The notes below the pieces were generated by a model. That model made no database searches and was not told where the DNA came from. It worked only from the letters and a program-made list of their open reading frames with translations. Positions 47,617 through 64,000 of a stretch of 64,000 nt of DNA are shown here, piece after piece. The translations under genes were made by a program, and so were the position numbers. The stretch's first letter is position 1, and every line of letters starts with the position of its first letter. This DNA comes from Phyllobacterium sp. 21LDTY02-6 (lineage in GTDB: Bacteria; Pseudomonadota; Alphaproteobacteria; Rhizobiales; Rhizobiaceae): NCBI RefSeq assembly GCF_023554255.2, contig NZ_JAMJWD020000006.1, positions 310,001 to 374,000 on the forward strand. Reading direction: 5' to 3'.

Positions 47617-48648
47617 CTAGTTTGAGAAGCCGAGGAATTCCGCCGTATCCGGATCGAGCGGTATGCCGTCGCGCAGCCGTTCTTCTTCCACGCGCCATTC
47701 CCGGTCGCCGGGCGCCATGACCTTTCCGCCTTCGACGCTTGGAACCGCGCGCAACTGATCGAGATAGGCACGCATGCCCGCCGCGAAGATCTCCGCGCCG
47801 GCAAAACGCGACGGATCGATCGCGAGGAAGAAATGTCCCATGTTGCGCGGCGTCGATATGTCCGTGCCGCCGACCATCGGGATGAAATCCGGGTCCAGCG
47901 TCGTGCCCATCAGAATCGAGGAAAGCAGTGTTGCAACACCTGCCAGGCCGGCTCCCTTGAAGCCATAGCCGACGCCGCCGAGTGGCAGGAGCATGGCAGC
48001 CGCCCCGGCGTCGAGCGTCGGCTCGCCCTTGTCGTCCGCCGCCACGCCAGCCGGCAGTTCCTTGCCGAGCGAGCGGTAGAGCAACACCCGATTGAGCGGG
48101 ATCGACGATGTCGCCATATCGAGCAGCCAGGGCTTTTCGCCGGGAACAGGCGCCGCAAAGGCAAGCGGGTTGGTGCCGTGGAACGGCTTCGCGCCATCGA
48201 ACAGGGTGACGACGGAATCGGTGTTGGTGGTGGCGAATCCGATCATTCCGGCCTCGGCTATTGCGCGGGCATAGGCGCCGGCGGCACCAAGGTGCGACGA
48301 ACGCACCGCGCCCACCGCGCCGATGCCGCTTTCACGGGCAATCTCGACCGCGAGCGCCGCAGCCCTGTAGGATGTGAGATGGCCGAGCGCATCGTCGCCG
48401 TCGACTACGGCAGTTGCCGCCCCCGTACGCCGCGTCGTGACCTCCGGCGTGGGATTGACCCTGCCGCCCTTCAACACGCGGCTATAATGCACGACCAGGC
48501 GCGCGCCGTGACTGTCGACGCCCAGCAGCGAAGCGTGCATCAGCGCCTTCGTCGTGGCCTCCACGCTTTCTTCCGACGCACCGGCGCTTCTCAGCCTGTC
48601 GGCGATCCGCAATGACAGTTCGGCTGCATCAACCCGTATCTCAGTCAT
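47617..48648 (-). CDS. Malate/L-lactate/ureidoglycolate dehydrogenase family (Ldh_2)
   Basis: 343 residues. The Ldh_2 fold is recognised by ALMHASLLGVDSHGARLVVH (about residues 35-54, with the catalytic His and Asp), GAAGAYARAIAEAGMIGFAT, and NTDSVVTLFDGAKPFHGTNP. It oxidises a 2-hydroxy acid with NAD(P). Candidates are malate, lactate, ureidoglycolate and sulfolactate; the neighbours do not decide between them. It stands alone with its own promoter region upstream (48649-48791). Confidence 0.88.
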   Translation of the reverse strand: MTEIRVDAAELSLRIADRLRSAGASEESVEATTKALMHASLLGVDSHGARLVVHYSRVLKGGRVNPTPEVTTRRTGAATAVVDGDDALGHLTSYRAAALAVEIARESGIGAVGAVRSSHLGAAGAYARAIAEAGMIGFATTNTDSVVTLFDGAKPFHGTNPLAFAAPVPGEKPWLLDMATSSIPLNRVLLYRSLGKELPAGVAADDKGEPTLDAGAAAMLLPLGGVGYGFKGAGLAGVATLLSSILMGTTLDPDFIPMVGGTDISTPRNMGHFFLAIDPSRFAGAEIFAAGMRAYLDQLRAVPSVEGGKVMAPGDREWRVEEERLRDGIPLDPDTAEFLGFSN

Positions 48649-49846: not shown

Positions 49847-50305
49847 ATGACTTCCCCACACACAGTTTTCTTCCTCAACGGTCCGAATGCCAACCTTTAT
49901 GGCCTCGATAAATCGGGGACCTACGGAAACGAGAGTTTTCAGTCGATCGGCGAACGGTGCCACGCCCATGCGGCCACCCTCGGCCTGCAGCTCGAATTTC
50001 GCCAGTCCAACCATGAGGGGCAGATCGTCGACTGGATTCAGGAGGCCAGGCAGGCGGCGCAGGGCGTGGTCATCAACGCCGCCGGGCTGACCTACTCTTC
50101 CATCCCGATCCTCGACGCCCTGCTGGCCTATGACGGCCCGATCATCGAAGTCCATATGAGCAATATATGGAAGCGAGAACCCTTCCGGCATCATTCCTAT
50201 GTGTCAAAGGCGGCCACCGGCGTCATCGCCGGCCTGGGGCCGCTTGGCTACGAACTTGCGCTTACGGCCGTTGCGACGCTCATCCGCGAAGGCAGCGCGA
50301 AATGA
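49847..50305 (+). CDS. aroQ: Type II 3-dehydroquinate dehydratase-like protein (AroQ family)
   Basis: 152 residues from the ATG at 49847 with AAGGAG upstream. The fold is clear: LNGPNANLYG, FRQSNHEGQIVDWIQEA, EVHMSNIWKREPFRHHSYVS. But the mobile lid, usually LGxREPxxYG, reads LYGLDKSGTYG, so the catalytic lid Arg is Asp. The strand normally NPGAxxHxS reads NAAGLTYSS, so its His is Tyr. Glu in NHEG, the His of EVHMSN and Arg of FRHHS are kept. The enzyme may thus act on a different compound than dehydroquinate. It overlaps the hydroxyacid dehydrogenase gene by 4 bases, and both lie near an ABC transporter operon. Confidence 0.75.
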   Translation: MTSPHTVFFLNGPNANLYGLDKSGTYGNESFQSIGERCHAHAATLGLQLEFRQSNHEGQIVDWIQEARQAAQGVVINAAGLTYSSIPILDALLAYDGPIIEVHMSNIWKREPFRHHSYVSKAATGVIAGLGPLGYELALTAVATLIREGSAK

Positions 50306-51231
50306 CGCGGTCCTGCATGGTGTTCTATAGTGCCCTCGACGATTTCGACGCCTGGCGGACAGCGCTCGAACCGGAAGGGATCGAGCTTTGCCGCAGCGAG
50401 GATATCACCGACGCGGACCGCGTGCGTTCCGCGCTCGTCTGGAAGCCGCCGCAGGGCTTTTTCCAGGATTTTCCCAAGCTCGAACTCGTCGTCAACCTGG
50501 GCGCGGGCGTCGATGCCCTTGTCGGCCGCGACGACCTGCCTGACGTTCCCATCACCCGTCTTTCCGATCCGCGCATGGCACGGATGATGGCGGGCTTCGT
50601 GCTGTTTGCCGTCACCCGCTACGCCCGCGACATTCCGCAATTCGAGAAGGCGCAGCGCGACCGGCGCTGGCATTACATTCATCCGAAAGATCCGGACAGC
50701 ATCACCGTCGGCGTGCTGGGGCTCGGGGAACTCGGGCTCGAGGCCGCCCGGGAATGCAGCCGTCACGGTTATCGCGTGCTCGGCTGGTCGCGAACCCGCA
50801 AGGACGTCGAAGGCGTTTCCTGCTCCAGTGGCGCCGATGCGCTCGTCTCCGTATTGTCCCGATCCGACATCGTCGTCTGCATGCTGCCGAAGACCCCGGA
50901 TACCGACAATCTCCTCGATGCAGCCATGTTCCGTTCGATGAAGCAAGGGGCGTTCTTCATCAACGTGTCGCGCGGCAGCGTCGTGGACGAACCGGCGCTG
51001 ATCGAAGCGCTGGCATCCGGCTGGCTCGGCGGTGCGACGCTGGACGTCTTCGCCAAGGAACCGCTTGCGGAAGACAGTCCGCTCTGGGCGATGGAGAACG
51101 TCCTGATCACGCCGCATCTGGCATCGATAGCCCTGCCCTCGTCCGCCGCCAGGCAGATCGGCGAGAATGTCCGCAGGATCGCACGCCGGGAGCCCGTGCT
51201 GAGCCGGATAGATCCGCAACGCGGCTATTGA
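50302..51231 (+). CDS. D-isomer-specific 2-hydroxyacid dehydrogenase (GhrA-like)
   Basis: 309 residues from the ATG at 50302, overlapping the preceding stop (ATGA). NAD-binding GVLGLGELGLEAARECSRHG is near residue 130-150, and the catalytic Arg/Glu/His set of the family can be followed through NVSRGSVVDEPALIEALASG (about 215) and the end of GATLDVFAKEPLAEDSPLW. It resembles glyoxylate/hydroxypyruvate reductase A. It probably reduces a 2-oxo acid produced in the same pathway as the AroQ-like protein. It ends 7 bases inside the convergent LysR gene. Confidence 0.88.
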   Translation: MTRSCMVFYSALDDFDAWRTALEPEGIELCRSEDITDADRVRSALVWKPPQGFFQDFPKLELVVNLGAGVDALVGRDDLPDVPITRLSDPRMARMMAGFVLFAVTRYARDIPQFEKAQRDRRWHYIHPKDPDSITVGVLGLGELGLEAARECSRHGYRVLGWSRTRKDVEGVSCSSGADALVSVLSRSDIVVCMLPKTPDTDNLLDAAMFRSMKQGAFFINVSRGSVVDEPALIEALASGWLGGATLDVFAKEPLAEDSPLWAMENVLITPHLASIALPSSAARQIGENVRRIARREPVLSRIDPQRGY

Positions 51232-52145
51232 ACCAGGCCGAACATGCCGCCCTTGGAAAAGGCCTCGCGCAGGTAGTCCGCGAACGCCTGAACCGCCGGA
51301 CGCGACCCATGGCGCGTCAGGCGCAGGAAGGTGACCGTGGCGGGCGGAAGCCGTTCGGAGATCGGCAGGAGAGCGATCCTGCTGCCGTCATAGCCGATCG
51401 TCGTGCAGGGCAGCACGTTGTGCAGCGAATAGCCCTGCCCATGGCCGACAAGACCGCGGATAAGCTCGGAAGAACGCGTCCTGAATGCAACCTGCGGCTC
51501 CAGCCCGCAGGCGGCGAACAGCGAAAAGAAATAATCGCGCGAATGCGGCAGGTCGAGCAGGATGAACGGGTCGCCCGCCAGCTCCGCAAGACTGATTTCG
51601 TCGCGGCCGGCAAGCGGATGGTTGGCGGAGACCAGCGCATAAGGCGGCAGATCGGCCAATTTTTCGCCGATAATCTCGTCCGGCACGGCAAAATGATAGG
51701 ACAGCGCCAGTTCCGTGCGCCCCGAGATGAGATGGCCGATCATCTCCTGCTGGTCACCCTCCTCGAGCTTCACCGAAATTCCGGGATAGCGCTGCGCAAA
51801 GCCGGACAGCAGCGCCGGCATGAACCGGATCGCCAGCGTCGGGAAACTGCCGACGACGATTTCGCCGCGCAACGCATCGCCGAGCGCCTGTGCGCTGTTG
51901 GCGAAGTCGCGGGCGTGGTTGAGCAGCAGCCGCGCGTCATTGACATATCGCTGCCCGGCCGCCGACAGGGTGACACCGCGGGCGTGATGGCGGACGAATA
52001 TCTGGATGCCAAGCTGGGCCTCCACCTGTGCAAGCGCCGTGGATATGGACGGCTGCGACACGTTCAGCCTCCGGGCCGCCTCGGTGACGCTGCCGCAATC
52101 AGCGGTTTCCACCACATAGCGCAGGACACGAAGTGACAAGTTCAT
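51225..52145 (-). CDS. LysR-family transcriptional regulator
   Basis: 306 residues from the ATG at 52145. The winged helix GSVTEAARRLNVSQPSISTA and the effector domain (GEIVVGSFPTLAIRFMPALL, LALSYHFAVPDEIIGEK) are standard; QVAFRTRSSELIRGLVGHGQ is part of the second subdomain. It is divergent from the ABC transporter operon at 52486 and likely controls it, and perhaps the convergent genes. Confidence 0.92.
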   Translation of the reverse strand: MNLSLRVLRYVVETADCGSVTEAARRLNVSQPSISTALAQVEAQLGIQIFVRHHARGVTLSAAGQRYVNDARLLLNHARDFANSAQALGDALRGEIVVGSFPTLAIRFMPALLSGFAQRYPGISVKLEEGDQQEMIGHLISGRTELALSYHFAVPDEIIGEKLADLPPYALVSANHPLAGRDEISLAELAGDPFILLDLPHSRDYFFSLFAACGLEPQVAFRTRSSELIRGLVGHGQGYSLHNVLPCTTIGYDGSRIALLPISERLPPATVTFLRLTRHGSRPAVQAFADYLREAFSKGGMFGLVQ

Positions 52146-52485
52146 AGTCAAAGCCTATTCAAACCAGAAGATAATAATATTTTCCGGATGCTAAGAGGTG
52201 CACCATCATCCGTCCAGCTTATTTTTGAAGCAAAATAACGAGTGCACTTGGAATTGGTTACAAAATGGGCGTTTATGTCGGCCTGGAGGCTGGGCGTCGC
52301 AACAGACGCACCGATGCAGGCATGGCCTGCCGGCATTGCAGCCTTTTACGCCGCCAGCCTTGTTGTGGCGATTCCAGTCGCGGGAGGAAAAAGGAGGAAC
52401 TGCGCATCGCCGACGGGAGAAGCGGCGAAGTGCGAAGGATATGCCCGGAAACTCAACTTTCACCAAAGAAAAACAGGGGAACAGC
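52146..52485. other. 340-bp gap between LysR and ABC operon
   Basis: No gene here: the open frames are read-through of the ABC binding-protein frame or unrelated. The LysR-proximal part is AT-rich and holds a perfect inverted repeat TTATTTT (52219-52225) / AAAATAA (52232-52238) with a 6-nt spacer, a possible regulator site. The rest is GC-rich with no feature I can name. Confidence 0.5.
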
Positions 52486-53529
52486 ATGTATCGCACATCC
52501 ATATTGATGGCCGGATTGATTTCGGCCCTGACATTTTTTTCACAGGCGGGCGACGGCCATGCCCAGGAAAAGCTGGTCGTCAGCACCTGGGGCGGCAGCT
52601 TCCGCGACCTGATCGACGAGGCGATCGGCCAGAAGTTCACCGAGGAAACCGGCGTCCCGGTCGAATATGTCACCGGCGGCACGATGGACCGGCTCAATCA
52701 GGCCAAGCTTGCAGGCGGCACGCCGGAAAGCGACATCACCTTCACCACCGCCCATGTCGGCTGGCTCTATGCCAATGACGGCCTGTACGAGACGCTCGAT
52801 CTCTCCAAGGTGCCGAATGCGTCGCATCTGGTGGAGCAGGCCAAGATCAGCCCCTACCATATCGGCGCCTGGGCCTATGTCTACACGATCGGCTATCTGC
52901 CGGACCAATTGCCCGAGGGCGTAAAGTTCGACAGCTGGGAGGGTCTGTGGAACCCTGCCCTCAAGGGCATGATCGCCTCGCCTGATTTCGATCCGAGCCA
53001 TGTGATCGCAGTTGCCGCGAAACTCGAAGGCAGCGATGCGGCCGGATGGGAGAAGGGCCAGGAAAAGCTCAAGGCGCTGAAGCCGAACTACAAGGCCTTC
53101 TACACCAACGACGCCAATAGCCAGCAGCTTTTCGCCACCGGCGAGACGCCGGTGCAGGTTATCCTGTCGATGAACGCCTATTACATGCGCGACCAGGGCG
53201 TGCCGGTGGAGATCGTCATCCCCAAGGAAGGCGGCGTGCTCGGTGTGGATACGATGGCCATCATGAAGGGGACCACCAAAAGCGAGCTCGCCTACAAGTT
53301 CTTGAACATCGCGCTCGATCCGGCGGTGCAGGCCAAGATCGCCGAGCTCAAGAAGGGCAGCCCGGTCATCGACAATGCCACCCTGAGCCCCGAGACCGCC
53401 GCCCTCCCCGGCATTTTCACCACCGCCGACCAATGGGCAAGCCAGACGCTGATCATCGACCACAAGCTGCGCGCGGAAAAGACCGCCGAATGGCGCAAGT
53501 GGTTCGCGGAAAACATGATCGGCCAGTAA
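52486..53529 (+). CDS. ABC transporter periplasmic binding protein (PotD/family 1 type)
   Basis: 347 residues from the ATG at 52486 with AGGGGAAC upstream; a much longer frame upstream is non-coding. Signal peptide MYRTSILMAGLISALTFFSQAGDGHAQ. Mature N-terminus KLVVSTWGGSFRDLIDEAIG and the C-terminal ADQWASQTLIIDHKLRAEKT match polyamine/opine-type (PotD-like) binding proteins. The ligand is unknown, perhaps a compound processed by the AroQ-like and dehydrogenase genes. It is the first gene of a four-gene operon. Confidence 0.9.
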   Translation: MYRTSILMAGLISALTFFSQAGDGHAQEKLVVSTWGGSFRDLIDEAIGQKFTEETGVPVEYVTGGTMDRLNQAKLAGGTPESDITFTTAHVGWLYANDGLYETLDLSKVPNASHLVEQAKISPYHIGAWAYVYTIGYLPDQLPEGVKFDSWEGLWNPALKGMIASPDFDPSHVIAVAAKLEGSDAAGWEKGQEKLKALKPNYKAFYTNDANSQQLFATGETPVQVILSMNAYYMRDQGVPVEIVIPKEGGVLGVDTMAIMKGTTKSELAYKFLNIALDPAVQAKIAELKKGSPVIDNATLSPETAALPGIFTTADQWASQTLIIDHKLRAEKTAEWRKWFAENMIGQ

Positions 53530-53551
53530 CGAAGCATGAGGCGCCCGGCAT

Positions 53552-53578
53552 CGCCCGCCCGTCGAAACGGCGCGGGCG
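53552..53578 (+). terminator. Hairpin between ABC binding protein and permease genes
   Basis: CGCCCGC (53552-53558) pairs with GCGGGCG (53572-53578), and within it CCGT-CGAA-ACGG pairs with a tetraloop; one base bulges. It lies 22 bp after the binding-protein stop and 21 bp before the first permease start. It is a likely attenuator that keeps the binding protein more abundant. Confidence 0.55.
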
Positions 53579-53599
53579 GTATCGCGCGAAGGATATCAC

Positions 53600-54451
53600 A
53601 TGAAGCAACGGCCATTCATCGGCTGGTTCGTTTCGCCCGCCGCCCTTGTGGCGCTCGGGCTGGCGGCCGCCATGGCAGCCATCCTGCAATACAGCGTGCG
53701 GGCCTATGTGCCGGGCTCGCTCGACGTAGGCGGGCTGACGCTCGAAAATTTCACCGCGCTCCTGCGCCCCCTTTACGCCTGGGCCTTCTGGGGAACCATT
53801 CTTCTTTGCCTGCTGACGGCGACCTTCACCCTGTTCCTTGCCTATCCGGTCGCCTATGCGCTGGTGCGTGTCCGGAGCAAGGCGCTGAAATCCTTCATCC
53901 TGATCGCGTCGGTGACGCCGCTTTTCCTCGGCGAGGTCGTGCGCACCTATTCCTGGATGATCGTGCTCGGCAATAATGGCTTCATCAACAGCGTGCTGAA
54001 GTCGCTCGGCATTATCGACCGGCCGCTGCAGATGATGTTCACCACGCCGGGCGTCGTCGCCGCGCTCGTGCATGTGACGATGCCGATCATGGTCATCATG
54101 CTGGCGGCGGGGCTTTCCCATATCGACAGGAATTACGAGAAGGCGGCCGAAAGCCTCGGCGCCAGTCCGGTGCGCTGCTTCCTGACGGTGACGCTGCCGC
54201 TGTCCATGCCCGGTATCGTCGCCGGTTTCTCGACTGCTTTCGCCTGGACCTTCAGTGCGTTCGCAACCCCGCAATTGATCGGCGGCGGCAAGGTCAACAC
54301 CGTATCGACCCTCGTCTACCAACTGGGCTTCGCCTCCTTCAATTTTCCATTTGCCGCGAGCCTGTCGCTGGCCGGTCTCGTGATGACCTTTGCGGTCATC
54401 GCCCTGATGAAACGGGCAATGCGCCCGGTCGAACGCCTGGGAGAACAGTGA
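53600..54451 (+). CDS. ABC transporter permease (PotB type)
   Basis: 283 residues with six helices, AAGGATATC before the ATG at 53600. The EAA loop region reads RNYEKAAESLGASPVRCFLT (about residues 175-195), typical of the binding-protein-dependent permeases of the PotB/HMW type. It forms half of the channel. The next permease starts 1 base after its stop. Confidence 0.92.
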   Translation: MKQRPFIGWFVSPAALVALGLAAAMAAILQYSVRAYVPGSLDVGGLTLENFTALLRPLYAWAFWGTILLCLLTATFTLFLAYPVAYALVRVRSKALKSFILIASVTPLFLGEVVRTYSWMIVLGNNGFINSVLKSLGIIDRPLQMMFTTPGVVAALVHVTMPIMVIMLAAGLSHIDRNYEKAAESLGASPVRCFLTVTLPLSMPGIVAGFSTAFAWTFSAFATPQLIGGGKVNTVSTLVYQLGFASFNFPFAASLSLAGLVMTFAVIALMKRAMRPVERLGEQ

Positions 54452-54452
54452 G

Positions 54453-55268
54453 ATGCCGTTTTCGATGCGCAAATCTCCGCTCGCGCTGGCGGGTATATTG
54501 CTGGTGGCGATCATTCTCGGCTTTGTCATGCTGCCGGCGATCGTCGTCACCATCACCGCCTTCAACGACAAGGCCATCCTGGCGTTTCCGCCGCAATCCT
54601 ATTCCTGGCGCTGGTTTGCCCGCGCGCTCAGCTATGGCGATTTCCAGAAGGGCTTCTGGAACGGGCTGATCGTCACCGCATGGGCCTCGACGATCGCGCT
54701 GATCGTCGGCAGCGGCTTCGCGCTTGCCCTCCACCGCTACGCGTTCTCGCTCAAATCGACGCTCGAGGCGGTGCTGCTGTCGCCGCTGGTCATTCCGCAT
54801 TTCACCATCGGGCTCGGCCTGCTGATCCTGTCGGCCCAGTTGACGGTCGGCCGCGGCTTTCCGCTGGTGGTGCTGGCGCATGTCATCCTTGTTCTGCCCT
54901 TCGTGCTGCGCAGCGTCTTCATCTCGCTGCAAAACCTCGACGGGCGGCTGGAACTCGCTGCCAGCAGCCTCGGCGCCTCGCCGCGCCGCGTCCTGTTCAC
55001 GGTCACCTTGCCGCTGCTGGTGCCGGGGCTGGTCAGCGGCTGGCTGTTTGCCGCGATCCTGTCCTTCAACGAGTTCACCGCCACGCTTTTCGTCTCCAAC
55101 CAGGCGACCCAGACCCTGCCGGTCGCCATGTACAATTACGTCCGCGAATATGCCGACCCGACCCTTGCCGCTCTGTCGGTGATCTACATCGTCGTCACGG
55201 CCCTGCTGCTGACCCTCGCCAATCTCTTCTTCGGTCTTGGAAAAATCCTCAATGTTGACGCGCACTGA
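54453..55268 (+). CDS. ABC transporter permease (PotC type)
   Basis: 271 residues with six helices. The EAA loop reads RLELAASSLGASPRRVLFTV (about residues 165-185). It is the second channel half. It starts 1 base after the first permease stop, and its end overlaps the ATPase start by 17 bases, so the genes are coupled. Confidence 0.92.
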   Translation: MPFSMRKSPLALAGILLVAIILGFVMLPAIVVTITAFNDKAILAFPPQSYSWRWFARALSYGDFQKGFWNGLIVTAWASTIALIVGSGFALALHRYAFSLKSTLEAVLLSPLVIPHFTIGLGLLILSAQLTVGRGFPLVVLAHVILVLPFVLRSVFISLQNLDGRLELAASSLGASPRRVLFTVTLPLLVPGLVSGWLFAAILSFNEFTATLFVSNQATQTLPVAMYNYVREYADPTLAALSVIYIVVTALLLTLANLFFGLGKILNVDAH

Positions 55269-56394
55269 TATTGCCACCCCCACATCACTCCCGGCGGAAA
55301 AGCCCGTGGTCCAGCTCGACGGCGTCACCAAGCGGTTCGGCGAAGCGATCGCACTGCACGAGGCATGGCTGAAAATCGTCCCCGGCGAGTTCATGACCCT
55401 GCTCGGCCCCTCCGGCTGCGGCAAGACCACGCTTCTCAACCTGATTGCCGGATTTCTCGATGCCGATGGCGGCGAGATCTTCATCGACGGCATCCTCGTC
55501 ACCGAGACGCCGGCGCATAAGCGCGAAATCGGCATCGTCTTCCAGAATTACGCGCTGTTTCCGCATATGACGGTGGCCAACAACATCGCCTACGGCCTGA
55601 AAACGCGCGGCATCGGCGCCGACGAAATCAAAAGGCGCGTCGACGAAGCACTCGCGCTCGTCAAGCTCGACGGTTTCGGCGACCGCAAGCCGCGGCAGCT
55701 TTCGGGCGGCCAGCAGCAACGGGTGGCGCTTGCGCGGGCGCTGGTGATCCGTCCAAAAGTACTGCTGCTCGACGAACCCTTTTCGGCGCTCGACAAGAAC
55801 CTGCGCGCCTCCATGCAGATCGAGCTGAAGGAAATCCAGCAGCGCCTCGGCGTCACCACCATCTTCGTGACGCATGATCAAGGTGAAGCGCTCTCGATGT
55901 CGGACCGGATCGCCGTCATGTCGGCGGGGCGCATCCGCCAGATCGCCGCGCCGCAGGACATTTATCGCCGGCCGCAGGACCGCTTCGTCGCCTCCTTCAT
56001 CGGCGACGCCAACGTGCTCAAGGGAAAACTGTCGGCGGTGACCGACGCCGTGGCGCAGGTCACGGTCGGATCGCTGTCGGTGGAGGTGCCCGCGGCCCCG
56101 CTGGCCGGGCTCGCCGCCGGGGCGGATGTCGATCTGTTCGTCCGGCCCGAACATCTTGTGCCGGTCGACGGCGATGGGGGTCCGGCCGCCCCGAGCCTTG
56201 CCGGCACGGTCAGGACCCAGGTCTTCCAGGGCGGTCACGTCGACCTGTACATCGATCTCGGCGAGCACGCGGCGCAACCCGTCTTGCTCAGGTCGTCCGC
56301 CGCCCTCGCGCCTTCGAAATGGCAAACCGGCGATGTCGTCCGCGTCCGGCCGGTCTCGGCCGATCTCGTCGCCTTTCCGAAACAGGACGGCTGA
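55252..56394 (+). CDS. ABC transporter ATPase (PotA type)
   Basis: 380 residues from the ATG at 55252. Walker A GPSGCGKTT, the signature LSGGQQQRVALARALV, and Walker B LLLDEPFSALDKNLR are intact. A C-terminal TOBE domain follows (LFVRPEHLVPVDGDGG, GHVDLYIDLGEHAAQPV). It powers the permeases at 53600-55268. It is the last gene of the operon; 245 bp of AT-rich DNA separates it from the TRAP genes. Confidence 0.94.
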   Translation: MLTRTDIATPTSLPAEKPVVQLDGVTKRFGEAIALHEAWLKIVPGEFMTLLGPSGCGKTTLLNLIAGFLDADGGEIFIDGILVTETPAHKREIGIVFQNYALFPHMTVANNIAYGLKTRGIGADEIKRRVDEALALVKLDGFGDRKPRQLSGGQQQRVALARALVIRPKVLLLDEPFSALDKNLRASMQIELKEIQQRLGVTTIFVTHDQGEALSMSDRIAVMSAGRIRQIAAPQDIYRRPQDRFVASFIGDANVLKGKLSAVTDAVAQVTVGSLSVEVPAAPLAGLAAGADVDLFVRPEHLVPVDGDGGPAAPSLAGTVRTQVFQGGHVDLYIDLGEHAAQPVLLRSSAALAPSKWQTGDVVRVRPVSADLVAFPKQDG

Positions 56395-56610: not shown

Positions 56611-56639
56611 GATCATAACAAGAAAAGAGGGTGATCATA

Positions 56640-57623
56640 ATGTCCATGATAAAGAAGATAGGTTTTGCTTTCGGCCTCGCAGCCAGCGTCCTTTCGGCGG
56701 ACCTGGCGGCAGCCCAGACGAAAATGCGGCTGGCGGTGGAGACCACCAGCGGCGATCCGACCAATGTGATGCTGGCGGCATTCCGGGACGAACTCAAGAA
56801 CACGACCGGCGACGCCTTTGCCATCGAATTCGCCGATGGCGGCTCGCTCGGGGATGAGAATGCGCTGGCGGAGCTTATCCGCGCCGGTGCGGTGGAAGTC
56901 ATTCCGCTCGGCTCGGATGGCGTTGCGGCACTCGACGCGAAGTTCTCGATCTTCGATACGCCCTTCCTGTTTTCCGGCAAGGAACAGGCGCGTGCAATGC
57001 TCGACGGCGAGCTCGGGCAGATCATGGCCGCCTCGCTGAAGGAAAAGGCCAATCTCGAAGTTCTGGCCTTCGGCGAGCTCGGCGTGCGTGTCGTCAGCAA
57101 TTCCAAGCGTGCGATCAATACACCGGCGGATCTCGGCGGCCTGAAGATCCGCACGCCGAACAGCCCGACACGCATCATGGCCTTCGAGACGCTCGGCGCG
57201 TCACCGACGACGCTCGCCCTCGGCGACGTCTATATGGGCCTGAAGCAGGGCGTCATCGACGGGCAGGAGAACCCGCTTTCGGTCATCAAGGAATTCTCGC
57301 TGTTCGAGACCCAGCCCCACATTTCCCTGACCAACCACATCTACACGCCGATCACCCTGGTCATGAACGGCGCGGCCTTCGATGCGCTTTCGGACGATCT
57401 CAAGGCCAAGGTCAAGGCCGCCGCCATGGTCGGCGTCCAGAAGACCCGTGTCCTGTCGGATGAGAGCGACGCAAACCTTGTCGCAGAGTTCGAAAAAGCC
57501 GGCGTGACCATCACCAGGCCGGATATCGCCGCCTTCCAGTCTGCCGCAGCGCCGGTTCGCAGCAAGATCGCGGAAGTCGTCACCCCTGAATTCATGGCCA
57601 AGGTCGAGGAGACACTCCGTTGA
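56640..57623 (+). CDS. dctP: TRAP transporter substrate-binding protein (DctP family)
   Basis: 327 residues from the ATG at 56640 with AGAGGGTG upstream; a second ATG is 2 codons later. Signal peptide MSMIKKIGFAFGLAASVLSADLAAAQ. The DctP fold shows GKMRLAVETTSGDP-like start, LGGLKIRTPNSPTRIMAFET with the conserved Arg that binds a carboxylate, and MGLKQGVIDGQENPLSVIKE. TRAP systems take up carboxylates such as 2-oxo, hydroxy and aryl acids without ATP. The next gene starts 4 bases before its end, then the two membrane subunits follow. Confidence 0.92.
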   Translation: MSMIKKIGFAFGLAASVLSADLAAAQTKMRLAVETTSGDPTNVMLAAFRDELKNTTGDAFAIEFADGGSLGDENALAELIRAGAVEVIPLGSDGVAALDAKFSIFDTPFLFSGKEQARAMLDGELGQIMAASLKEKANLEVLAFGELGVRVVSNSKRAINTPADLGGLKIRTPNSPTRIMAFETLGASPTTLALGDVYMGLKQGVIDGQENPLSVIKEFSLFETQPHISLTNHIYTPITLVMNGAAFDALSDDLKAKVKAAAMVGVQKTRVLSDESDANLVAEFEKAGVTITRPDIAAFQSAAAPVRSKIAEVVTPEFMAKVEETLR

Positions 57624-58438
57624 ACGTCGCAACATCCAGGTCTCCGGCGAAAGCCGGAGCCTACCCGCGTTTTCGCTATGACGGCTCGGGCAATCTGGCA
57701 CGCATCGGCCTCATCTACATCGCCTCCAGCGTGGTGATGGAGGAAGAGATGTGGGCGATGTCGGCTGAAGGCGTCTCCACCCATACGGCCCGCATCAAGC
57801 TGCCGAAAGTGACGGTTCAGGGCATCGAGGAGATGATGGGCGCGCCCGAACTCGAAACCGCGGCTCGCATGGCAGGAGCCGCGCCGATCGACGTCCTGCT
57901 GTTCGGCGGCACCAGCGCTTCGTTCCTGCACGGCACGGCCTATGACCGGGCCCTGATCGACAAGATCAGGCAATGGGTGCCGGGCCCCAAGGTGACGACG
58001 GCATCGACGGCGACCCTCGCTGCCTTGAAGAAGGTAGAGGCCGGCAAGGTGGCTCTTGCCACGCCCTATCTGCCGGAAATCCACGAGCGGGCCATCCGCT
58101 TCCTCGAGGAGAATGGCCACGCCGTCGTCAAGAGCGGCCATCTCGGCATATCGGACGACCATGCGCTGGCGGAGGTCTCGCTTGAAGAGGTCTATGACCA
58201 TGTCCTGTCCGTCGATCATCCGGATGCCAGTGCGATATTCGTCTCCTGCACCAATTTCCGCACCGTGGGCGCCATCGAAGCGCTGGAAGATCGCCTCGGC
58301 AAGCCGGTGATATCGGCGAACCAGGCATCGTTCTGGCATTGCCTGGAACTCGCCGGCGTTGCAGGCGCGCGCCCCGGTTACGGCCGCCTTTTCGACGGCA
58401 GCACCTGCGGCAACACTCGCGACGGGGGTGAACGATGA
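57620..58438 (+). CDS. Arylmalonate decarboxylase/maleate isomerase-like protein (Asp/Glu racemase superfamily)
   Basis: 272 residues, overlapping dctP and dctQ by 4 bases each. Residues 96-101 read GGTSAS where maleate isomerases and racemases have a catalytic Cys; here Gly97 stands in its place, while the second Cys (FVSCTNF) is Cys210. A Gly plus a single Cys (Gly74, Cys188) is the arrangement of Bordetella arylmalonate decarboxylase, and many blocks match it as I recall it (TTASTATLAALKK, VALATPYLPEIHERAIRFL, LAGVAGARPGYGRLFD). So it may decarboxylate a malonate-type acid rather than isomerise. It sits inside a TRAP operon, which fits uptake of such an acid. Confidence 0.8.
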   Translation: MNVATSRSPAKAGAYPRFRYDGSGNLARIGLIYIASSVVMEEEMWAMSAEGVSTHTARIKLPKVTVQGIEEMMGAPELETAARMAGAAPIDVLLFGGTSASFLHGTAYDRALIDKIRQWVPGPKVTTASTATLAALKKVEAGKVALATPYLPEIHERAIRFLEENGHAVVKSGHLGISDDHALAEVSLEEVYDHVLSVDHPDASAIFVSCTNFRTVGAIEALEDRLGKPVISANQASFWHCLELAGVAGARPGYGRLFDGSTCGNTRDGGER

Positions 58439-58953
58439 CGCAGGCTGCCGCACCGACCCCCAGCGAAATCCTGAGCCAAGAGGTGACGCGTCGCTCGAAG
58501 CTCCGCAGCGCGTTCCAGTGGCTGGTCGAGACCGCCGCCATCATGCTGCTCGTCGTCCTTGTCAGTCTGGTGCTTGCCAACTCGCTCGGACGTTATCTCT
58601 TCTCAAAGCCCCTGCCCTGGACCGAGGAAGTGGTGACCGCGCTGCTGATGTGGCTTGGCGCACTTGGCATCACCATCGCCGCGCTCAAGAACGAACTCAT
58701 CAGCTGCGCGATCTGGACGCAACGCCTGACCGGGACTTCCAGATACGCGCTTGCGATCTTCCAGTCGGTATTTTCCATCGCGGTCGTGGCAATCGTCGGC
58801 GTGCTCGCCTGGCGTTATCTCGGCATCTTCGGCTCCGACCGGACGCCGATCCTCGGCATATCGAAGGCCGTCGCCATCTCGGGCATTCTCGCGACCTGCG
58901 CCGGGCTCGGCATCGCCTTTGCCTTCAACATCATCGAGGGGAGGAAAGACTGA
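58435..58953 (+). CDS. dctQ: TRAP transporter small membrane subunit (DctQ family)
   Basis: 172 residues with four transmembrane helices and the family segment RYLFSKPLPWTEEVVTALLM (about residues 62-81). A 35-residue N-terminal extension is hydrophilic. It bridges the binding protein and DctM. It overlaps the decarboxylase-like gene by 4 bases and dctM by 1. Confidence 0.92.
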   Translation: MTQAAAPTPSEILSQEVTRRSKLRSAFQWLVETAAIMLLVVLVSLVLANSLGRYLFSKPLPWTEEVVTALLMWLGALGITIAALKNELISCAIWTQRLTGTSRYALAIFQSVFSIAVVAIVGVLAWRYLGIFGSDRTPILGISKAVAISGILATCAGLGIAFAFNIIEGRKD

Positions 58954-60233
58954 TGCTGGGTCTTGCCGCCGTCACGCTCTTCATCCTCTGCGCCCTCGTG
59001 CTGATCGGGCTGCCGATCGTCATATCGCTCGCGGCCTCGGTGCTGTTTTTCCTCGCGATCAGCGGCGGATGGGAACTGGCGCTGCCGCAGCAGACGCTCG
59101 GCGGCGTCGGCGACTACATTCTCATCACGCTTCCCCTGTTCATCCTTGCCGGCGGCATCATGAACGCCACGGGGATCGCCGACAAGCTCTTCGATTTCGG
59201 CGTCGCCCTGGTGGGCTGGCTTCGCGGCGGCCTCGCCCATGTCGATGTCGTCGCCAGCGTCATGTTCGGCGGCATGATCGGCACTTCGGTCGCCGATCTC
59301 GCCGGCAGCGGCTCGGTCACCATCCCGAAGCTCAAGGCCCATGGCTATCCGGGTCCGTTTGCAGCGGCCGTTACCGCAACCTCTTCGGGCATCGGCGTTC
59401 TCATTCCGCCAAGCTCGCCGATGATCCTCTATTCCGCCGTCACCGGCACCTCGCTCGGCGCACTTTTCCTGGCCGGCGTCATTCCGGGCCTCCTGATGGC
59501 GCTGGCGATGATGATCACCATTTCCATTCTTGCGAGGCGCAACGGCTGGAAGCCCGTGGGAACGTTCCAGTGGAAAGAAGTGCTTCGCACGGGCAAGCAT
59601 GCGATCCTGCCGCTCGGCATGCCCGGCCTTATCCTCTTCGGCCTGATGTTCGGCATTTTCACTGCCACCGAGGCAGGTGCCTTCGCGGTCGCCTATGCGG
59701 TGGTGCTGGCGGCTGTCGTCTATCGCACGCTGACATTCTCCAACTTGCGCCGCGCGCTCGTCGATTCCTGCATCCTCACCGGCGAAGTGCTGATGGTCGT
59801 CGGCTTTTCGACGGCGCTCGGCTGGGCGCTCTCGCAGGCCGGCGTTCCCGCGGCGCTTGCGCATGGGCTGGAAACGGTCTTCCCGTTCGAGAATACGACG
59901 CTCAAGATCTTCGCACTTCTCGCGATCGCGTTGATCGCGGGCATGGTGCTCGATCCGCTGATCCCGATGATAATGCCCGTGCTATTGCCGTCGCTGATGG
60001 CGATGGATGTCGATCTCATCCATTTCGGCGTGCTGATGGTGACGACGGTCGTCATCGGCCAGGTGACGCCGCCGGTGGCGATAGCGCTTCTCGTGGCGGC
60101 GAAGATCGGCAACGAGGATGTCATGCGGGTGACCAAGGCAAACATGCCGTTTCTCGTCGCGCTGTTCCTGTTCCTGATCCTGTTGACGCTGTTCCCCGTG
60201 CTGTCGACGGCGCTTCCGGCCCTCTTGAAATAG
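58953..60233 (+). CDS. dctM: TRAP transporter large membrane subunit (DctM family)
   Basis: 426 residues from the ATG at 58953, which overlaps the dctQ stop by one base; an upstream in-frame stretch is the wrong start. It has about 12 helices with the DctM repeats (GTSVADLAGSGSVTIPKLKA, FAAAVTATSSGIGVLIPPSS near residue 140-160, and VTPPVAIALLVAAKIGNED near 370). It transports the substrate with sodium or proton symport. It is the last gene of the transport unit; a 202-bp gap precedes the monooxygenase gene. Confidence 0.95.
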   Translation: MLGLAAVTLFILCALVLIGLPIVISLAASVLFFLAISGGWELALPQQTLGGVGDYILITLPLFILAGGIMNATGIADKLFDFGVALVGWLRGGLAHVDVVASVMFGGMIGTSVADLAGSGSVTIPKLKAHGYPGPFAAAVTATSSGIGVLIPPSSPMILYSAVTGTSLGALFLAGVIPGLLMALAMMITISILARRNGWKPVGTFQWKEVLRTGKHAILPLGMPGLILFGLMFGIFTATEAGAFAVAYAVVLAAVVYRTLTFSNLRRALVDSCILTGEVLMVVGFSTALGWALSQAGVPAALAHGLETVFPFENTTLKIFALLAIALIAGMVLDPLIPMIMPVLLPSLMAMDVDLIHFGVLMVTTVVIGQVTPPVAIALLVAAKIGNEDVMRVTKANMPFLVALFLFLILLTLFPVLSTALPALLK

Positions 60234-60435
60234 GGAAGAGACATGGCGCGCCACCCTCCAGACCATCCGGCTTGAGCCACCAAGGATTTCCCGAGCTTCT
60301 ACCAAGGAAGATACTTCTTTTCACCGCAGCCCGTCGCACGCAATCCTCTGCGACAGACGTCTTCGATCAGCCAGTCCCGCCGCCTCAAGCAAGGGGCGCC
60401 TGTCTGGTCGCATTGCCCAAATCTAGGAATTGAAG

Positions 60436-61686
60436 ATGACAATCGAAAAAATAGATACGCTCGTCGTCGGCGCCGGACAGTCCGGGATAGCCATGAGCGA
60501 ACATTTGAAGGACTGCGGCGTCCCACACATCGTTCTCGAGCGGAACCGGGTGGCGGAGCAATGGCGGACGGGCCGCTGGGACTCTCTCGTCGCCAATGGG
60601 CCGGCGTGGCACGACCGTTTTCCGAACCTCGAATTCGATGACGTCTCGCCCGACACCTTTCCGCCCAAGGACAGGATGGCGCGCTACTTCGAAGACTACG
60701 CCAACATGATCGACGCCCCGATTCGCACCGGCGTCGAGGTCAAGCGCGTCCAGCGCAACGAGGGACGCCCGGGCTTCCTCGTCACCACGTCCGAGGGCCT
60801 GATCGAAGCGCAGCGGGTGGTGGCTGCCACCGGTCCGTTCCAGGTGCCGCAATATCCCAATATCGTTCCGGCCGACGCCGGGATCGAGCAGCTCCATTCC
60901 TCCGCCTACAAGAACCCGGGGCAACTGCCCGAAGGTGCAGTCCTCGTCGTCGGTGGCGGAGCCTCCGGTTCGCAGATCGCCGAGGAGCTGCAGCGCGCCG
61001 GCCGCAAGGTCTACCTGTCCATCGGCGAGCACTACCGCCCGCCCCGCTCCTACCGCGCGCGCGATTATGTCTGGTGGCTGGGCGTCCTCGGCAAGTGGGA
61101 CGAGATCAAGACGATTGCCAAGAAGAAGCACGTGGCTTTCGCCGTCAGCGGTTATGATGGCGGCAAGACCGTCGATTTCCGCCTTCTGGCCGAAAGAGGC
61201 GTCACGGTTCTTGGCATGACCAGTGGCTACCGCGATGGAATATTGAACATCAACAACGACCTCGCGGATAACATCGCCGAGGGTGACCGCGCCTATCTCG
61301 AGGTCCTGCGCGAGGCCGACGCCTATGTCGAGCGCAACGGCATCGACCTGCCGGCCGAGCCGGAAGCCTGGGAAATCGCGCCGAACCCGGATTGCATCGC
61401 CAACCCGATTCTCGAGCTCGACCTCGCCAGGGCCGGGATCACGACGATCATCTGGGCGACCGGCTTCAAGTTCGATTTCAGCTGGCTGGATGTCGATGCC
61501 TTCCATGAGGATGGCACGCCCTTCCACAAGCGCGGGATCTCTTCCGAAAGGGGCATCTATTTCCTTGGTCTTCCCGAACTGACGAACCGCGCGTCATCCT
61601 TCATCTACGGCTGCTGGTACGACGCGAAATACATAGCCACCCACATCGTGGTACAGCGAAACTACGCTGCCTATGAAAGGGAATAG
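60436..61686 (+). CDS. Flavin-containing monooxygenase family protein
   Basis: 416 residues from the ATG at 60436 (AGGAATT upstream). FAD site TLVVGAGQSGIAMSEHLKDC (about residues 9-28), followed by ERNRVAEQWRTGRWDSLVAN, where the WR...W segment is typical of class B flavin monooxygenases. The second nucleotide site is AVLVVGGGASGSQIAEELQR (about 168-187), for NADPH. It may hydroxylate or Baeyer-Villiger-oxidise the TRAP substrate or a product of the decarboxylase. It starts a second run of genes 202 bp after dctM on the same strand. Confidence 0.88.
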   Translation: MTIEKIDTLVVGAGQSGIAMSEHLKDCGVPHIVLERNRVAEQWRTGRWDSLVANGPAWHDRFPNLEFDDVSPDTFPPKDRMARYFEDYANMIDAPIRTGVEVKRVQRNEGRPGFLVTTSEGLIEAQRVVAATGPFQVPQYPNIVPADAGIEQLHSSAYKNPGQLPEGAVLVVGGGASGSQIAEELQRAGRKVYLSIGEHYRPPRSYRARDYVWWLGVLGKWDEIKTIAKKKHVAFAVSGYDGGKTVDFRLLAERGVTVLGMTSGYRDGILNINNDLADNIAEGDRAYLEVLREADAYVERNGIDLPAEPEAWEIAPNPDCIANPILELDLARAGITTIIWATGFKFDFSWLDVDAFHEDGTPFHKRGISSERGIYFLGLPELTNRASSFIYGCWYDAKYIATHIVVQRNYAAYERE

Positions 61687-61689
61687 TCC

Positions 61690-62715
61690 ATGACCGCCGA
61701 GGCCGCCGCCATCCCTCGAGCCATGACCGCCGTAATCGCCGAAGCCCCCGGCGGAGCTGAGGTCCTGACCCGCGTGCAGCGCGACGTGCCGCGCCCGGCC
61801 ATCGGTGAAGTGCTGATCTCCGTCGCCGCGGCGGGTATCAACCGACCCGACATAATGCAGCGATCCGGCGCCCTGCCCGCACCGGCCGGCACGTCCGACA
61901 TTTTCGGGCTGGAGGTTGCGGGACGCATCGTGGCCTGTGGCGATACGGTCGACGCCGCCTTAATCGGCACCGAGGTCATGGCGCTGGTCAAGGCCGGCGG
62001 TTATGCGACGCATGTCTGCGCCCGCGCCGACCATTGCCTGCCGGTTCCGGCGGGACTTTCGCTGGTCGAGGCCGCCGCCTTGCCGGAAGGGCTGTTCACC
62101 ATCTGGCACAATCTCTTCGACCGGGGTGCGCTCCGCTCCGGCGAAACACTTCTGATCGAGGGCGGCGCATCAGGCATCGGCACGCTGGCGCTGCAGCTGG
62201 CAAAAGCCGTCGGCGCCAGCGTGATCGCGACTGCCGGCGGGGCCGAGAAATGCGCAAGGCTCGCTGCCATGGGTGTTTCGGCAGTCGATTACCGCGAACC
62301 CGGCCAGGACGAACGCATCCTCGAGCTGACCGAGGGTCGAGGCGTCGATGTCGTGCTCGACATTCTCGGCGGCGAGGCCGTCAACCGACACCTGGCGCTG
62401 ATGGCGCCGGGCGGCCGTCATGTCGGCCTGTCGTTCATGACCGGTGCGACGGCCAGCATCGATCTCGGATTGCTGATGCGCAAGGGGCTGTGGCTGACGT
62501 CCTCGACGCTGCGGCCAAAGCCGGATGCGGAAAAGGCAGACATCGCCCGGAGCATCGTCCGCCATCTGCTGCCGCATATCGGCGCCGCCGGTGTCCGTCC
62601 GGTCATTTCCGCTATTCTGCCGCTCACGCAGGCCGCCGAGGCGCATCGCCTGCTGGAGAGCGGTACGAATTTCGGCAAGATCGTCCTGCAGCTAGCCGAG
62701 GAAACGCAGCCATGA
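61690..62715 (+). CDS. Quinone oxidoreductase-like MDR family protein
   Basis: 341 residues, 3 bp after the monooxygenase stop. The Zn-free alcohol dehydrogenase fold shows AVIAEAPGGAEVLTRVQRDV at the N-terminus, NAD(P) motif GGASGIGTLALQLAKAVGAS (about residues 157-176) and the Zn-ligand residues of ADH absent. The closest enzymes reduce quinones or enones with NADPH. In this context it could reduce an unsaturated intermediate. Confidence 0.9.
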   Translation: MTAEAAAIPRAMTAVIAEAPGGAEVLTRVQRDVPRPAIGEVLISVAAAGINRPDIMQRSGALPAPAGTSDIFGLEVAGRIVACGDTVDAALIGTEVMALVKAGGYATHVCARADHCLPVPAGLSLVEAAALPEGLFTIWHNLFDRGALRSGETLLIEGGASGIGTLALQLAKAVGASVIATAGGAEKCARLAAMGVSAVDYREPGQDERILELTEGRGVDVVLDILGGEAVNRHLALMAPGGRHVGLSFMTGATASIDLGLLMRKGLWLTSSTLRPKPDAEKADIARSIVRHLLPHIGAAGVRPVISAILPLTQAAEAHRLLESGTNFGKIVLQLAEETQP

Positions 62716-62779
62716 TCCGCGTATCCTCTGCCGACCATCCGTTAACCCCTTACCCGTGCGAACAAAGGTAACAGCCCAA

Positions 62780-63193
62780 ATGGCCCATTTCCGTCACCGC
62801 AAGTTCAACACTAGCGACACCTATCCCGAGCAGAAGCTCGACAATGATCTGGCGCAGGCCGTGGTCGCCCGCGGAACGACCATCTTCCTGCGCGGCCAGT
62901 GCCCGCAGGACCTGGACACGGCGAAGAACATCGACAGTCACGACCCGGTCGAACAGACCCATAAGGTGATGCAGAACATTCGCCAGCTGGTCGAGGAATG
63001 CGGCGGCAAGATGGAGCATGTGACCAAGCTCGTGGTCTATCTCACCGACGTGCGTCACCGCGAAGCCGTCTATCGCACCATGGGCGACTATATCCGTGGT
63101 GTGCACCCGGTCTGCACCGGCCTGGTGGTCGTGGCGCTGGCCCGTCCCGAATGGCTGGTCGAAATCGACGCCACCGCCGTCATTCCTGATTGA
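62780..63193 (+). CDS. Rid-family protein without the catalytic arginine
   Basis: 137 residues from the ATG at 62780. The Rid fold is clear (TTIFLRGQCPQDLDTAKNID, DPVEQTHKVMQNIRQLVEEC, LVEIDATAVIPD). In deaminating Rid proteins (RidA group) an Arg stands in PxR[ST] before the last strands; here the segment reads HPVCTGLVVVALAR, so the Arg is Cys. That places it in the non-deaminating subfamilies, whose function is largely unknown but which are often next to flavin oxidoreductases. It is 65 bp after the MDR gene. Confidence 0.85.
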   Translation: MAHFRHRKFNTSDTYPEQKLDNDLAQAVVARGTTIFLRGQCPQDLDTAKNIDSHDPVEQTHKVMQNIRQLVEECGGKMEHVTKLVVYLTDVRHREAVYRTMGDYIRGVHPVCTGLVVVALARPEWLVEIDATAVIPD

Positions 63194-63238
63194 CCGGCTT
63201 CGCATGAACGCCGCAGCAAACCGCATCGAGGATAGAAC

Positions 63239-63913
63239 ATGACCTTTTCCATCGTTGGCCACTGCCCCGAAACGGGGATGTTCGGTCTCGCCATCTCCTC
63301 CTCCTCCCCCGCCGTAGCGGCCCGTTGCGCCTTCGCCCGGGCGGGAGTCGGCGCCGTTTCGACGCAGAACATCACCGATCCGCGCCTCGGTCCGAAAACG
63401 CTGGACCTCATGGAGCGCGGAGCCACGCCCGGCGAGGCATTGGCGATCCTCGAGCGGACGGGCGAGCATATGGCCTGGCGCCAGGTTCTCGCCGTCGGGC
63501 GCAGCGGCGAGAGCGCGATCTATTCCGGCTCCGAGGTGCTCGGCCTGTGGAGCGAGGCGCAGGACGTGGACGTGGCCGCGGCGGGCAATCTGCTTGCCGA
63601 CACCGCCGTTCCGGAGGCAATGGTCAGCACGTTTGGCAGGACCAGAGGCGGGCTGGGCGATCGATTGATGGCGGCGCTTGCCGCGGGTCTGGCCGCCGGC
63701 GGCGAGGCGGGGCCCGTGCATTCGGCTGGCCTGCTGATGGTGGACCGGCAAAGCTGGCCGATCGCCGAACTGCGCATCGACTGGACCAATGGCTGTCCGA
63801 TCGAAGCTCTCAGCGAGGCCTGGAAGGTCTTCGCGCCGCAGATGGACGCCTATGTGACGCGCGCGCTCGACCCGCGCAGCGCACCGTCCTACGGTGTGCC
63901 GGGCGACGAGTGA
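63239..63913 (+). CDS. DUF1028 protein (Ntn-hydrolase-like)
   Basis: 224 residues from the ATG at 63239, with GAGGATAGAAC upstream. It starts MTFSIVGHCPETGMFGLAIS, then GAVSTQNITDPRLGPKTLDL and the conserved block GRSGESAIYSGSEVLG; the family has a glutamine-amidotransferase-like Ntn fold but its reaction is not established. DUF1028 genes often stand beside Rid genes, as here. It closes the cluster before a LysR gene. Confidence 0.85.
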   Translation: MTFSIVGHCPETGMFGLAISSSSPAVAARCAFARAGVGAVSTQNITDPRLGPKTLDLMERGATPGEALAILERTGEHMAWRQVLAVGRSGESAIYSGSEVLGLWSEAQDVDVAAAGNLLADTAVPEAMVSTFGRTRGGLGDRLMAALAAGLAAGGEAGPVHSAGLLMVDRQSWPIAELRIDWTNGCPIEALSEAWKVFAPQMDAYVTRALDPRSAPSYGVPGDE

Positions 63914-63947
63914 CCGCCGCCGGCGACAGCCAGAGGATGCAAGCACG

Positions 63948-64000
63948 ATGCCACTTCGATTCACGCTGCGACAGCTCGAATATTTCATCGCCGTCGGCGA
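63948..64000 (+). CDS. LysR-family regulator, N-terminus only (3' end outside window)
   Basis: The frame from the ATG at 63948 reads MPLRFTLRQLEYFIAVG and runs off the window after 17 complete codons. The segment RQLEYFIAVG is the beginning of a LysR winged helix. It is probably the regulator of the TRAP/decarboxylase/monooxygenase cluster. Confidence 0.65.
   Translation, partial: MPLRFTLRQLEYFIAVG

Follow-up and report, generated by a model that had tools for sequence, protein, structure and literature searches.

A dehydroquinase-like protein and a Hin-like gene set in one proteobacterial cluster: a candidate route for the catabolism of imidazole-ring carboxylic acids

Introduction

Which compound is broken down by a gene cluster that combines two importers, a dehydroquinase homologue, a flavin monooxygenase (FMO) and an atypical Rid protein, and by what route? 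The question is raised by a 64,000-nucleotide stretch of Phyllobacterium sp. 21LDTY02-6, here called the window (positions 310001-374000 of contig NZ_JAMJWD020000006.1; source genome of 4.6 Mb, 99.65% complete). Here AroQ', a protein related to type II dehydroquinase, and a GhrA-like dehydrogenase are followed by an ATP-binding cassette (ABC) importer, a tripartite ATP-independent periplasmic (TRAP) transporter, a homologue of arylmalonate decarboxylase (AMDase), the FMO, an MDR oxidoreductase, the Rid protein and a DUF1028 protein. A first-pass annotation had read the part from the TRAP genes onward as an undescribed pathway which imports a malonate- or aryl-acid, decarboxylates and oxidises it, and cleans up a reactive intermediate. 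In the reading preferred here, the cluster probably serves the catabolism of an imidazole-ring carboxylic acid, which would pass through two entry units into a trunk resembling the Hin enzymes and ending at aspartate. Four genes correspond to a known module, while the remainder constitutes, as far as we searched, an undescribed extension.

Loci compared

The contig extends 2.9 kb past the window end, where a second LysR gene is followed by an ArgE-type M20 deacylase; the extended stretch from this contig is locus L033. The comparison set comprises 39 AroQ-type loci and 25 loci without AroQ'. AroQ lies within the stretch in 36 of the 39, with the other three (L036, L037 and L062), whose stretches end before AroQ, being assigned by hand. 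These loci form a non-random sample, mostly retrieved by FMO or Rid searches and containing several near-copies, and FMO-retrieved stretches reach at most 10 kb from the FMO, with missing genes partly due to stretch ends. Probes for histamine dehydrogenase, ALDH2, NCS1, GMC and AspA were taken from the 25 loci without AroQ'. 

A probable Hin-like trunk

Two reports on Pseudomonas putida U and P. aeruginosa describe hinF as an FAD monooxygenase (EC 1.14.13.5), hinL as an enamine deaminase, hinH as an amidase and hinG as an amidase (EC 3.5.1.8), with HinFLHG converting imidazole-4-acetate to aspartate (PMC6467879, PMC8231116). The HinH, G, F and L proteins of P. putida U are deposited under AWA45227-AWA45230 (PMC6467879). 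An FAD monooxygenase, a Rid protein, a third hydrolase and an M20 deacylase likewise stand together in the cluster studied here. Shared with hinFLHG are the FAD monooxygenase, the Rid-type enamine deaminase and LysR control, together with an amidase (probably the DUF1028 protein) and a deformylase (probably the M20 enzyme), and by analogy a Hin-like trunk is likely. The cluster differs in adding AroQ', the GhrA-like dehydrogenase, the MDR oxidoreductase, the ABC and TRAP importers and, in most relatives, a glutathione S-transferase (GST), in lacking a homologue of the histamine dehydrogenase or aldehyde dehydrogenase probes used, and in an FMO that belongs to its own clade. The first-pass statement that no described pathway has this set therefore holds for the whole, for which the literature search returned no description (nor anything for DUF1028 alone, imidazolelactate, or Klebsiella plasmid combined with the enzyme names), but not for FMO, Rid, DUF1028 and M20, which match HinF-L-H-G, a known module that its author could not have recognised from the letters alone. 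Given that match, the generic oxidation and clean-up once assigned to the FMO and Rid proteins are better read as ring hydroxylation and ring opening.

Loci of Pseudonocardia, Burkholderia, Bradyrhizobium, Acetobacter and Leisingera carry the same four genes and no AroQ. A protein of the Leisingera locus scores 1261 bits to 6de6 and 849 bits to 3k30 (solved histamine dehydrogenase), and homologues of 75-80% identity are found in three further loci. A close homologue of histamine dehydrogenase is thus present in 4 of the 25 loci without AroQ', three of which carry FMO, Rid, DUF1028 and M20, the fourth (L129) having the FMO alone within its stretch. Aspartate ammonia-lyase is encoded in two of the 25 (Pseudonocardia and Leisingera).

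Glycines of the dinucleotide motif are present in both nucleotide-binding motifs of 33 of 33 FMOs. The window FMO shares its superfamily with the MSMEG_0569 family (TIGR04046), part of the Nit1C cluster, and differs in scoring 344 bits against a cut-off of 498. The Klebsiella pneumoniae cluster (L063) is flanked, at a distance of a few kb, by a nitrilase-family gene; other Nit1C partners are not named there. Threonine replaces what is presumably the YjgF arginine of the Rid protein in 28 of 28 distinct rows, which bears out the first-pass remark that this residue is missing. In the DUF1028 protein, a threonine (Thr2) directly follows the start methionine in 27 of 27 sequences, and Foldseek, queried with a weak model (pLDDT 56), returned 2imh and then proteasome subunits (E 1.5e-4). 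The catalytic residues of the M20 enzyme are kept, with a gap at the last zinc ligand in 1 of 15 rows.

The oxygenase is an FMO in 37 of the 39 AroQ-type loci and of HpaB type in two (L119 and L120). In these two an HpaB-type monooxygenase takes the place of the FMO, as it does in L073, the Paracoccus aminophilus plasmid pAMI6 (L073 11515-15321), which has no FMO and where the HpaB-type gene adjoins Rid, DUF1028 and ArgE. Among the loci without AroQ', HpaB-type genes are found in two, L073 and L134, the latter with an FMO about 5 kb away. Azospirillum and Ewingella plasmids (L075 13992-16684; L078 9863-15579) carry an agmatinase-family gene in Rid-M20/ArgE-like clusters with no DUF1028 named, a pattern that would suit, we infer, a DUF1028 enzyme that attacks a formimino or comparable C-N bond.

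Two apparent entry units

An FMO scan of named genomes gave 26 loci, by their titles from Rhizobiales and Rhodobacterales. TRAP, AMDase-like, MDR, Rid and DUF1028 genes all lie alongside the FMO in 15 of these stretches (in one, L061, DUF1028 is a fragment at the stretch end), a co-presence which argues that the cluster is not due to chance. Gene by gene, MDR is present in 24 of the 26 stretches, Rid and DUF1028 in 23 each, AroQ in 22, GST in 17 and TRAP with the AMDase-like gene in 16. The members are conserved together across orders and classes, a point on which the first-pass annotation had made its pathway idea depend. All the genes it named on one strand, with their overlaps, are present where it placed them; its core is real, and the unit is larger, as AroQ'-GhrA, the ABC importer, LysR and M20 also belong to it.

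Among the 39 AroQ-type loci, the GhrA-like gene and the ABC binding protein are each found in 34 and are both missing from the same five, while the AMDase-like gene and DctP are found in an identical set of 20. TRAP-AMDase occurs without ABC-GhrA in L038, L039, L040 and L068; only L051 has neither pair, and it is split, with FMO and AroQ' about 8.5 kb apart. Because ABC/GhrA and TRAP/AMDase co-occur as pairs, two uptake and entry units appear to feed one trunk. TRAP and the AMDase-like enzyme are an optional entry unit and not the pathway core. Other counts are 36 for MDR and 27 for GST and, with losses at stretch ends included, 36 for Rid, 33 for DUF1028 and 26 for M20. AroQ' adjoins the GhrA-like gene in all 31 loci having both, as GST does MDR in 27 of 27, and an FMN alpha-hydroxyacid oxidase (L-lactate dehydrogenase type) is encoded in 5 of the 39.

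The AMDase-like enzyme shares with AMDase and with EutA of ectoine utilisation the fold family, one cysteine, a GTS motif and a tyrosine, GTS and Tyr presumably forming the dioxyanion hole of AMDase. Equivalents of G74, T75, S76, Y126 and C188, in AMDase numbering, are present in 18 of 18 proteins, so that the one-cysteine decarboxylase active site is kept. It differs from both in its tie to TRAP, in a threonine for Gly189 and in falling below both curated cut-offs (144 bits with the EutA model; 112.5 bits with the AMDase model NF052327, cut-off 225). Its best alignment is with solved AMDase. The nearest solved proteins to DctP are 4p9k/4pdh/4nq8 and 4pak; the first three presumably bind D-erythronate or pantoate. 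The ABC binding protein of Leisingera is 25% identical to that of the window, so the importers do not support a shared substrate. Both LysR regulators are nearest to 6m5f/3fzv among solved proteins, LysR1 scoring 241 bits there against 94 for its next solved relative; 6m5f/3fzv is presumably HinK, the sensor of imidazole-acetate. In relatives, LysR1 adjoins either TRAP-AMD or AroQ'-HADH-ABC genes.

AroQ' and the GhrA-like dehydrogenase

AroQ' is homologous over its full length to type II 3-dehydroquinate dehydratase (AroQ) and shares with it the equivalents of Asn12, Tyr24, Asn75, Glu99, His101, Arg108 and Arg112. It differs at Arg19 and His81, catalytic positions of the type II enzyme: Asp and Tyr stand there in 35 of 35 distinct cluster sequences (at least 60% identity to the window AroQ'), whereas among ten ordinary AroQ proteins the arginine is kept in all ten and the histidine in eight, with one Phe and one Ser. 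It scores 161 bits with the equivalog model TIGR01088, below the cut-off of 170. A separate, ordinary AroQ is encoded in all six genomes checked, in the source genome at G000:C10:40872. As far as we searched, a seemingly re-tooled AroQ would stand at the centre of the undescribed extension. In the public annotation of the K. pneumoniae cluster (L063), one gene is called type II 3-dehydroquinate dehydratase, probably wrongly, and two others argE and glyoxylate/hydroxypyruvate reductase A. The catalytic Arg, Glu and His of the GhrA-like enzyme are present in 26 of 26 sequences.

AroQ' and the FMO also go together in a broader set of 398 Pseudomonadota genomes, of which 35 have the FMO (E at most 1e-100) and six an AroQ with 68% identity or more. 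An FMO of at least 69% identity is present in four genomes including the source genome, each with that AroQ on the same contig, about 0.1-10 kb away; AroQ at its threshold is found in none of the other 31 FMO-bearing genomes. The two genomes with AroQ and no FMO at the threshold (G428 and G194) have an HpaB-type monooxygenase adjoining AroQ, and in G428 DUF1028 and an M20 gene follow just beyond the stretch read.

Gene histories of the late enzymes

In quick phylogenies, the oxygenase tracks cluster type and Rid tracks host lineage. With L053 left out, the FMOs from AroQ-type loci group as a single clade (support 100); with L053 included, two changes are required. The FMO of L053 belongs to this clade, and its stretch holds Rid and DUF1028 and no AroQ. 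The Rid tree requires nine changes, at least three of them forced by well-supported branches, and a single clade of AroQ-type Rid proteins is rejected (approximately unbiased test, p-AU 8e-65). The Klebsiella Rid protein, for instance, is 86% identical to that of a Burkholderia locus without AroQ' and 49% identical to that of the window. With the FMOs in one clade and the Rid proteins not, the late enzymes look interchangeable between AroQ-type and histamine-type clusters, which favours an intermediate common to both. Most simply read, Rid and, judged by identity, DUF1028 and M20 would have the same task in the two cluster types.

Proposed pathway and alternative readings

Gene content, co-occurrence, active-site residues and clades are observations, on which the following scheme would build. 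The ABC importer and the GhrA-like 2-hydroxy/2-oxoacid dehydrogenase might take in an imidazolyl 2-hydroxy or 2-oxo acid, and the TRAP importer with the AMDase-like decarboxylase a malonate-type relative, both being guesses; that the imported compound resembles imidazole-lactate or imidazole-pyruvate is itself a tentative guess, more easily wrong than right. AroQ' and MDR, with GST in most relatives, would trim the side chain to give imidazole-4-acetate or a close analogue. By extension from Hin, the FMO or HpaB-type monooxygenase would hydroxylate the imidazole ring, Rid would open the hydroxylated ring, DUF1028, acting as an N-terminal-threonine hydrolase, would take off the imino nitrogen, and deformylation by the M20 enzyme would leave L-aspartate. 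We give about even chances to the wider proposal that AroQ' represents a new activity on the dehydroquinase fold and is central to an undescribed pathway that moves horizontally among alpha-, beta- and gammaproteobacteria, Klebsiella plasmids included, and that would use two interchangeable entry units to bring imidazolyl acids of 2-hydroxy, 2-oxo or malonate type into the Hin trunk. The scheme offers a testable function for DUF1028 and for genes whose database names (dehydroquinate dehydratase, argE, ghrA) come from other pathways, and would tie a Rid protein without the usual arginine to ring opening. Retention of breakdown genes by soil, marine and enterobacterial plasmids points to a common compound as substrate.

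Several points weigh against this reading. The match to Hin depends on annotation, gene order and histamine-dehydrogenase neighbours, and DUF1028 is only a probable counterpart of HinH. The AroQ-cluster FMO falls outside the histamine-type FMO clade (56-64% identity to the other type), and one genome (G446) has both FMO types on one contig, which suggests that they are non-redundant and that the substrate of the AroQ-cluster FMO may differ from imidazole acetate. FMO and HpaB-type genes are not strict alternatives, L134 holding both. The M20 enzyme scores 374 bits with the acetylornithine deacetylase equivalog TIGR01892, above its cut-off of 298, so that its name alone is no pointer to formyl-aspartate, although a HinG-like use remains compatible with the score; the Pseudonocardia M20 is only 17-21% identical to the others. 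Aspartate ammonia-lyase is found in none of the 39 AroQ-type loci at the threshold used. In the window no GST lies beside MDR, there being no space between MDR and Rid. Finally, the scheme does not account for AroQ', which does score above the NF003806 cut-off (186 bits against 171).

Four other readings were weighed. In line with the first-pass annotation, TRAP could import a malonate- or aryl-acid for decarboxylation by the AMDase-like enzyme, oxidation by the FMO and clean-up by Rid, the substrate being a carbocyclic aromatic and not an imidazole. This accords with the preserved AMDase active site, with the identical distribution of TRAP and AMDase-like genes over 20 loci and with genes named for hydroxyphenylpropionate breakdown about 6 kb beyond the cluster of R. 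bangladeshense; it is nevertheless unlikely, as 19 of the 39 loci miss TRAP and the AMDase-like gene and retain the rest, FMO-Rid-DUF1028-M20 is the Hin set, and the annotated loci read name no gene for aromatic ring cleavage within the bounds of the cluster. The apparent interchangeability of the late enzymes would suit plain histamine or imidazoleacetate catabolism on the hin substrate, with AroQ', GhrA, MDR and GST as side genes. Histamine dehydrogenase, ALDH2, NCS1, GMC and AspA, however, are found in none of the 39 loci at the thresholds used (against 4, 8, 7, 4 and 2 of the 25 others), the source genome has no close histamine dehydrogenase (best 30% identity), and the FMO clade is distinct, with both types in G446, which makes this unlikely too.

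That distinct FMO clade would fit the same late logic applied to another azole, such as oxazole or thiazole acids, yielding an N-acyl amino acid other than N-formyl-aspartate; with late enzymes that look interchangeable with those of histamine-type clusters, we judge it very unlikely. A quinate- or shikimate-type catabolism is what the database name dehydroquinate dehydratase implies, and AroQ with GhrA-like names in annotated records and the NF003806 score speak for it. It is extremely unlikely: in all 35 copies Asp and Tyr replace the catalytic Arg and His, the TIGR01088 cut-off is missed, and a separate ordinary AroQ exists in 6 of 6 genomes; nor do the annotated clusters read name a gene for quinate dehydrogenase or for protocatechuate, a point for which no dedicated search was made. 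A homarine route was dropped for want of supporting literature, and mycosporine, pantothenate, S-succinocysteine and nicotinate routes were dropped because key enzymes are missing.

Distribution on plasmids

Carriers of the AroQ' cluster are alpha-, beta- and gammaproteobacteria, soil and marine bacteria among them. Plasmids bearing it come from Klebsiella, Pantoea, E. coli (truncated at the record start), Rhizobium, Shinella, Roseivivax and Roseinatronobacter and also, by sequence in records without gene annotation, from Paraburkholderia and Variovorax. In 108 of 72,556 plasmid records, 80% or more of the 13.5 kb Klebsiella version lies in one place. No E. coli genome among 5426 reaches 80% of the Klebsiella core in a single place; the E. 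coli plasmid AH21, the record start of which lies inside the cluster, has 56% of it in one place, and the other 14 of the best 15 of 4812 records in the E. coli search match about 100 bases or less.

Gene layout and neighbouring genes

The genes of the window and those just past its end are listed in Table 1. AroQ' and HADH share 4 bases, and DctP, the AMDase-like gene, DctQ and DctM overlap by 4, 4 and 1 bases. The ABC importer, of PotFGHI type, spans 52480-56394 on the same strand, upstream of the TRAP genes.

Table 1. Genes of the AroQ-type cluster in the window and on the adjoining part of the contig
Feature	Coordinates	Strand	Basis
AroQ' (type II dehydroquinase-like)	49850..50305	+	NF003806 and TIGR01088 profile scores; Asp for Arg19, Tyr for His81
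GhrA-like D-2-hydroxyacid dehydrogenase (HADH)	50302..51231	+	PRK15469 186 bits, cut-off 403 not reached
LysR1 regulator, divergent	51225..52151	-	Open reading frame (ORF); nearest solved relatives 6m5f/3fzv
Polyamine/opine-type ABC solute-binding protein	52480..53529	+	Sequence; present in 34/39 AroQ-type loci
Two ABC permeases	53600-54451, 54453-55268	+	Present in 34/39 AroQ-type loci
ABC ATPase	55252..56394	+	Present in 33/39 AroQ-type loci
DctP, TRAP solute-binding protein	56631..57623	+	TIGR00787 209 bits, PF03480
AMDase/EutA-like one-cysteine enzyme	57620..58438	+	PF17645 113 bits
DctQ, TRAP small permease	58435..58953	+	PF04290
DctM, TRAP large permease	58953..60233	+	TIGR00786 332 bits
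FMO, HinF-like, AroQ-cluster clade	60430..61686	+	TIGR04046-like, 344 bits, cut-off 498 not reached
MDR / PIG3-type NAD(P)H oxidoreductase	61690..62715	+	TIGR02824 383 bits
Rid protein, HinL-like, no YjgF Arg	62756 or 62780 to 63193	+	PF01042
DUF1028, Ntn-hydrolase-like, probable HinH counterpart	63239..63913	+	PF06267 214 bits
LysR2, start	63945..64000, runs to ~64886 on contig (L033 14945-15886)	+	ORF
M20/ArgE-like deacylase, HinG-like	~64913-66076, beyond window (L033 15913-17076)	downstream of LysR2	Profile search

Just upstream of AroQ', at 47617-48648 on the minus strand, ORF reading suggests a 2-hydroxyacid oxidoreductase like Ldh/malate dehydrogenase 2. Outside the cluster, window positions 37028-41118 hold homogentisate-type genes, HmgA-, FAH-, maleylacetoacetate isomerase- and HPPD-like by the same kind of reading. 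Among 148 other genomes of a close-relative set, an orthologue of the AMDase-like enzyme is found only in G070 (71% identity), remaining matches being at most 38%. There (L034 4300-18000) the AMDase-like, GhrA-like and LysR1 genes lie in a different cluster, together with another TRAP transporter, an M20 gene, an amino-acid ABC importer and, by ORF reading, molybdenum-hydroxylase-like genes.

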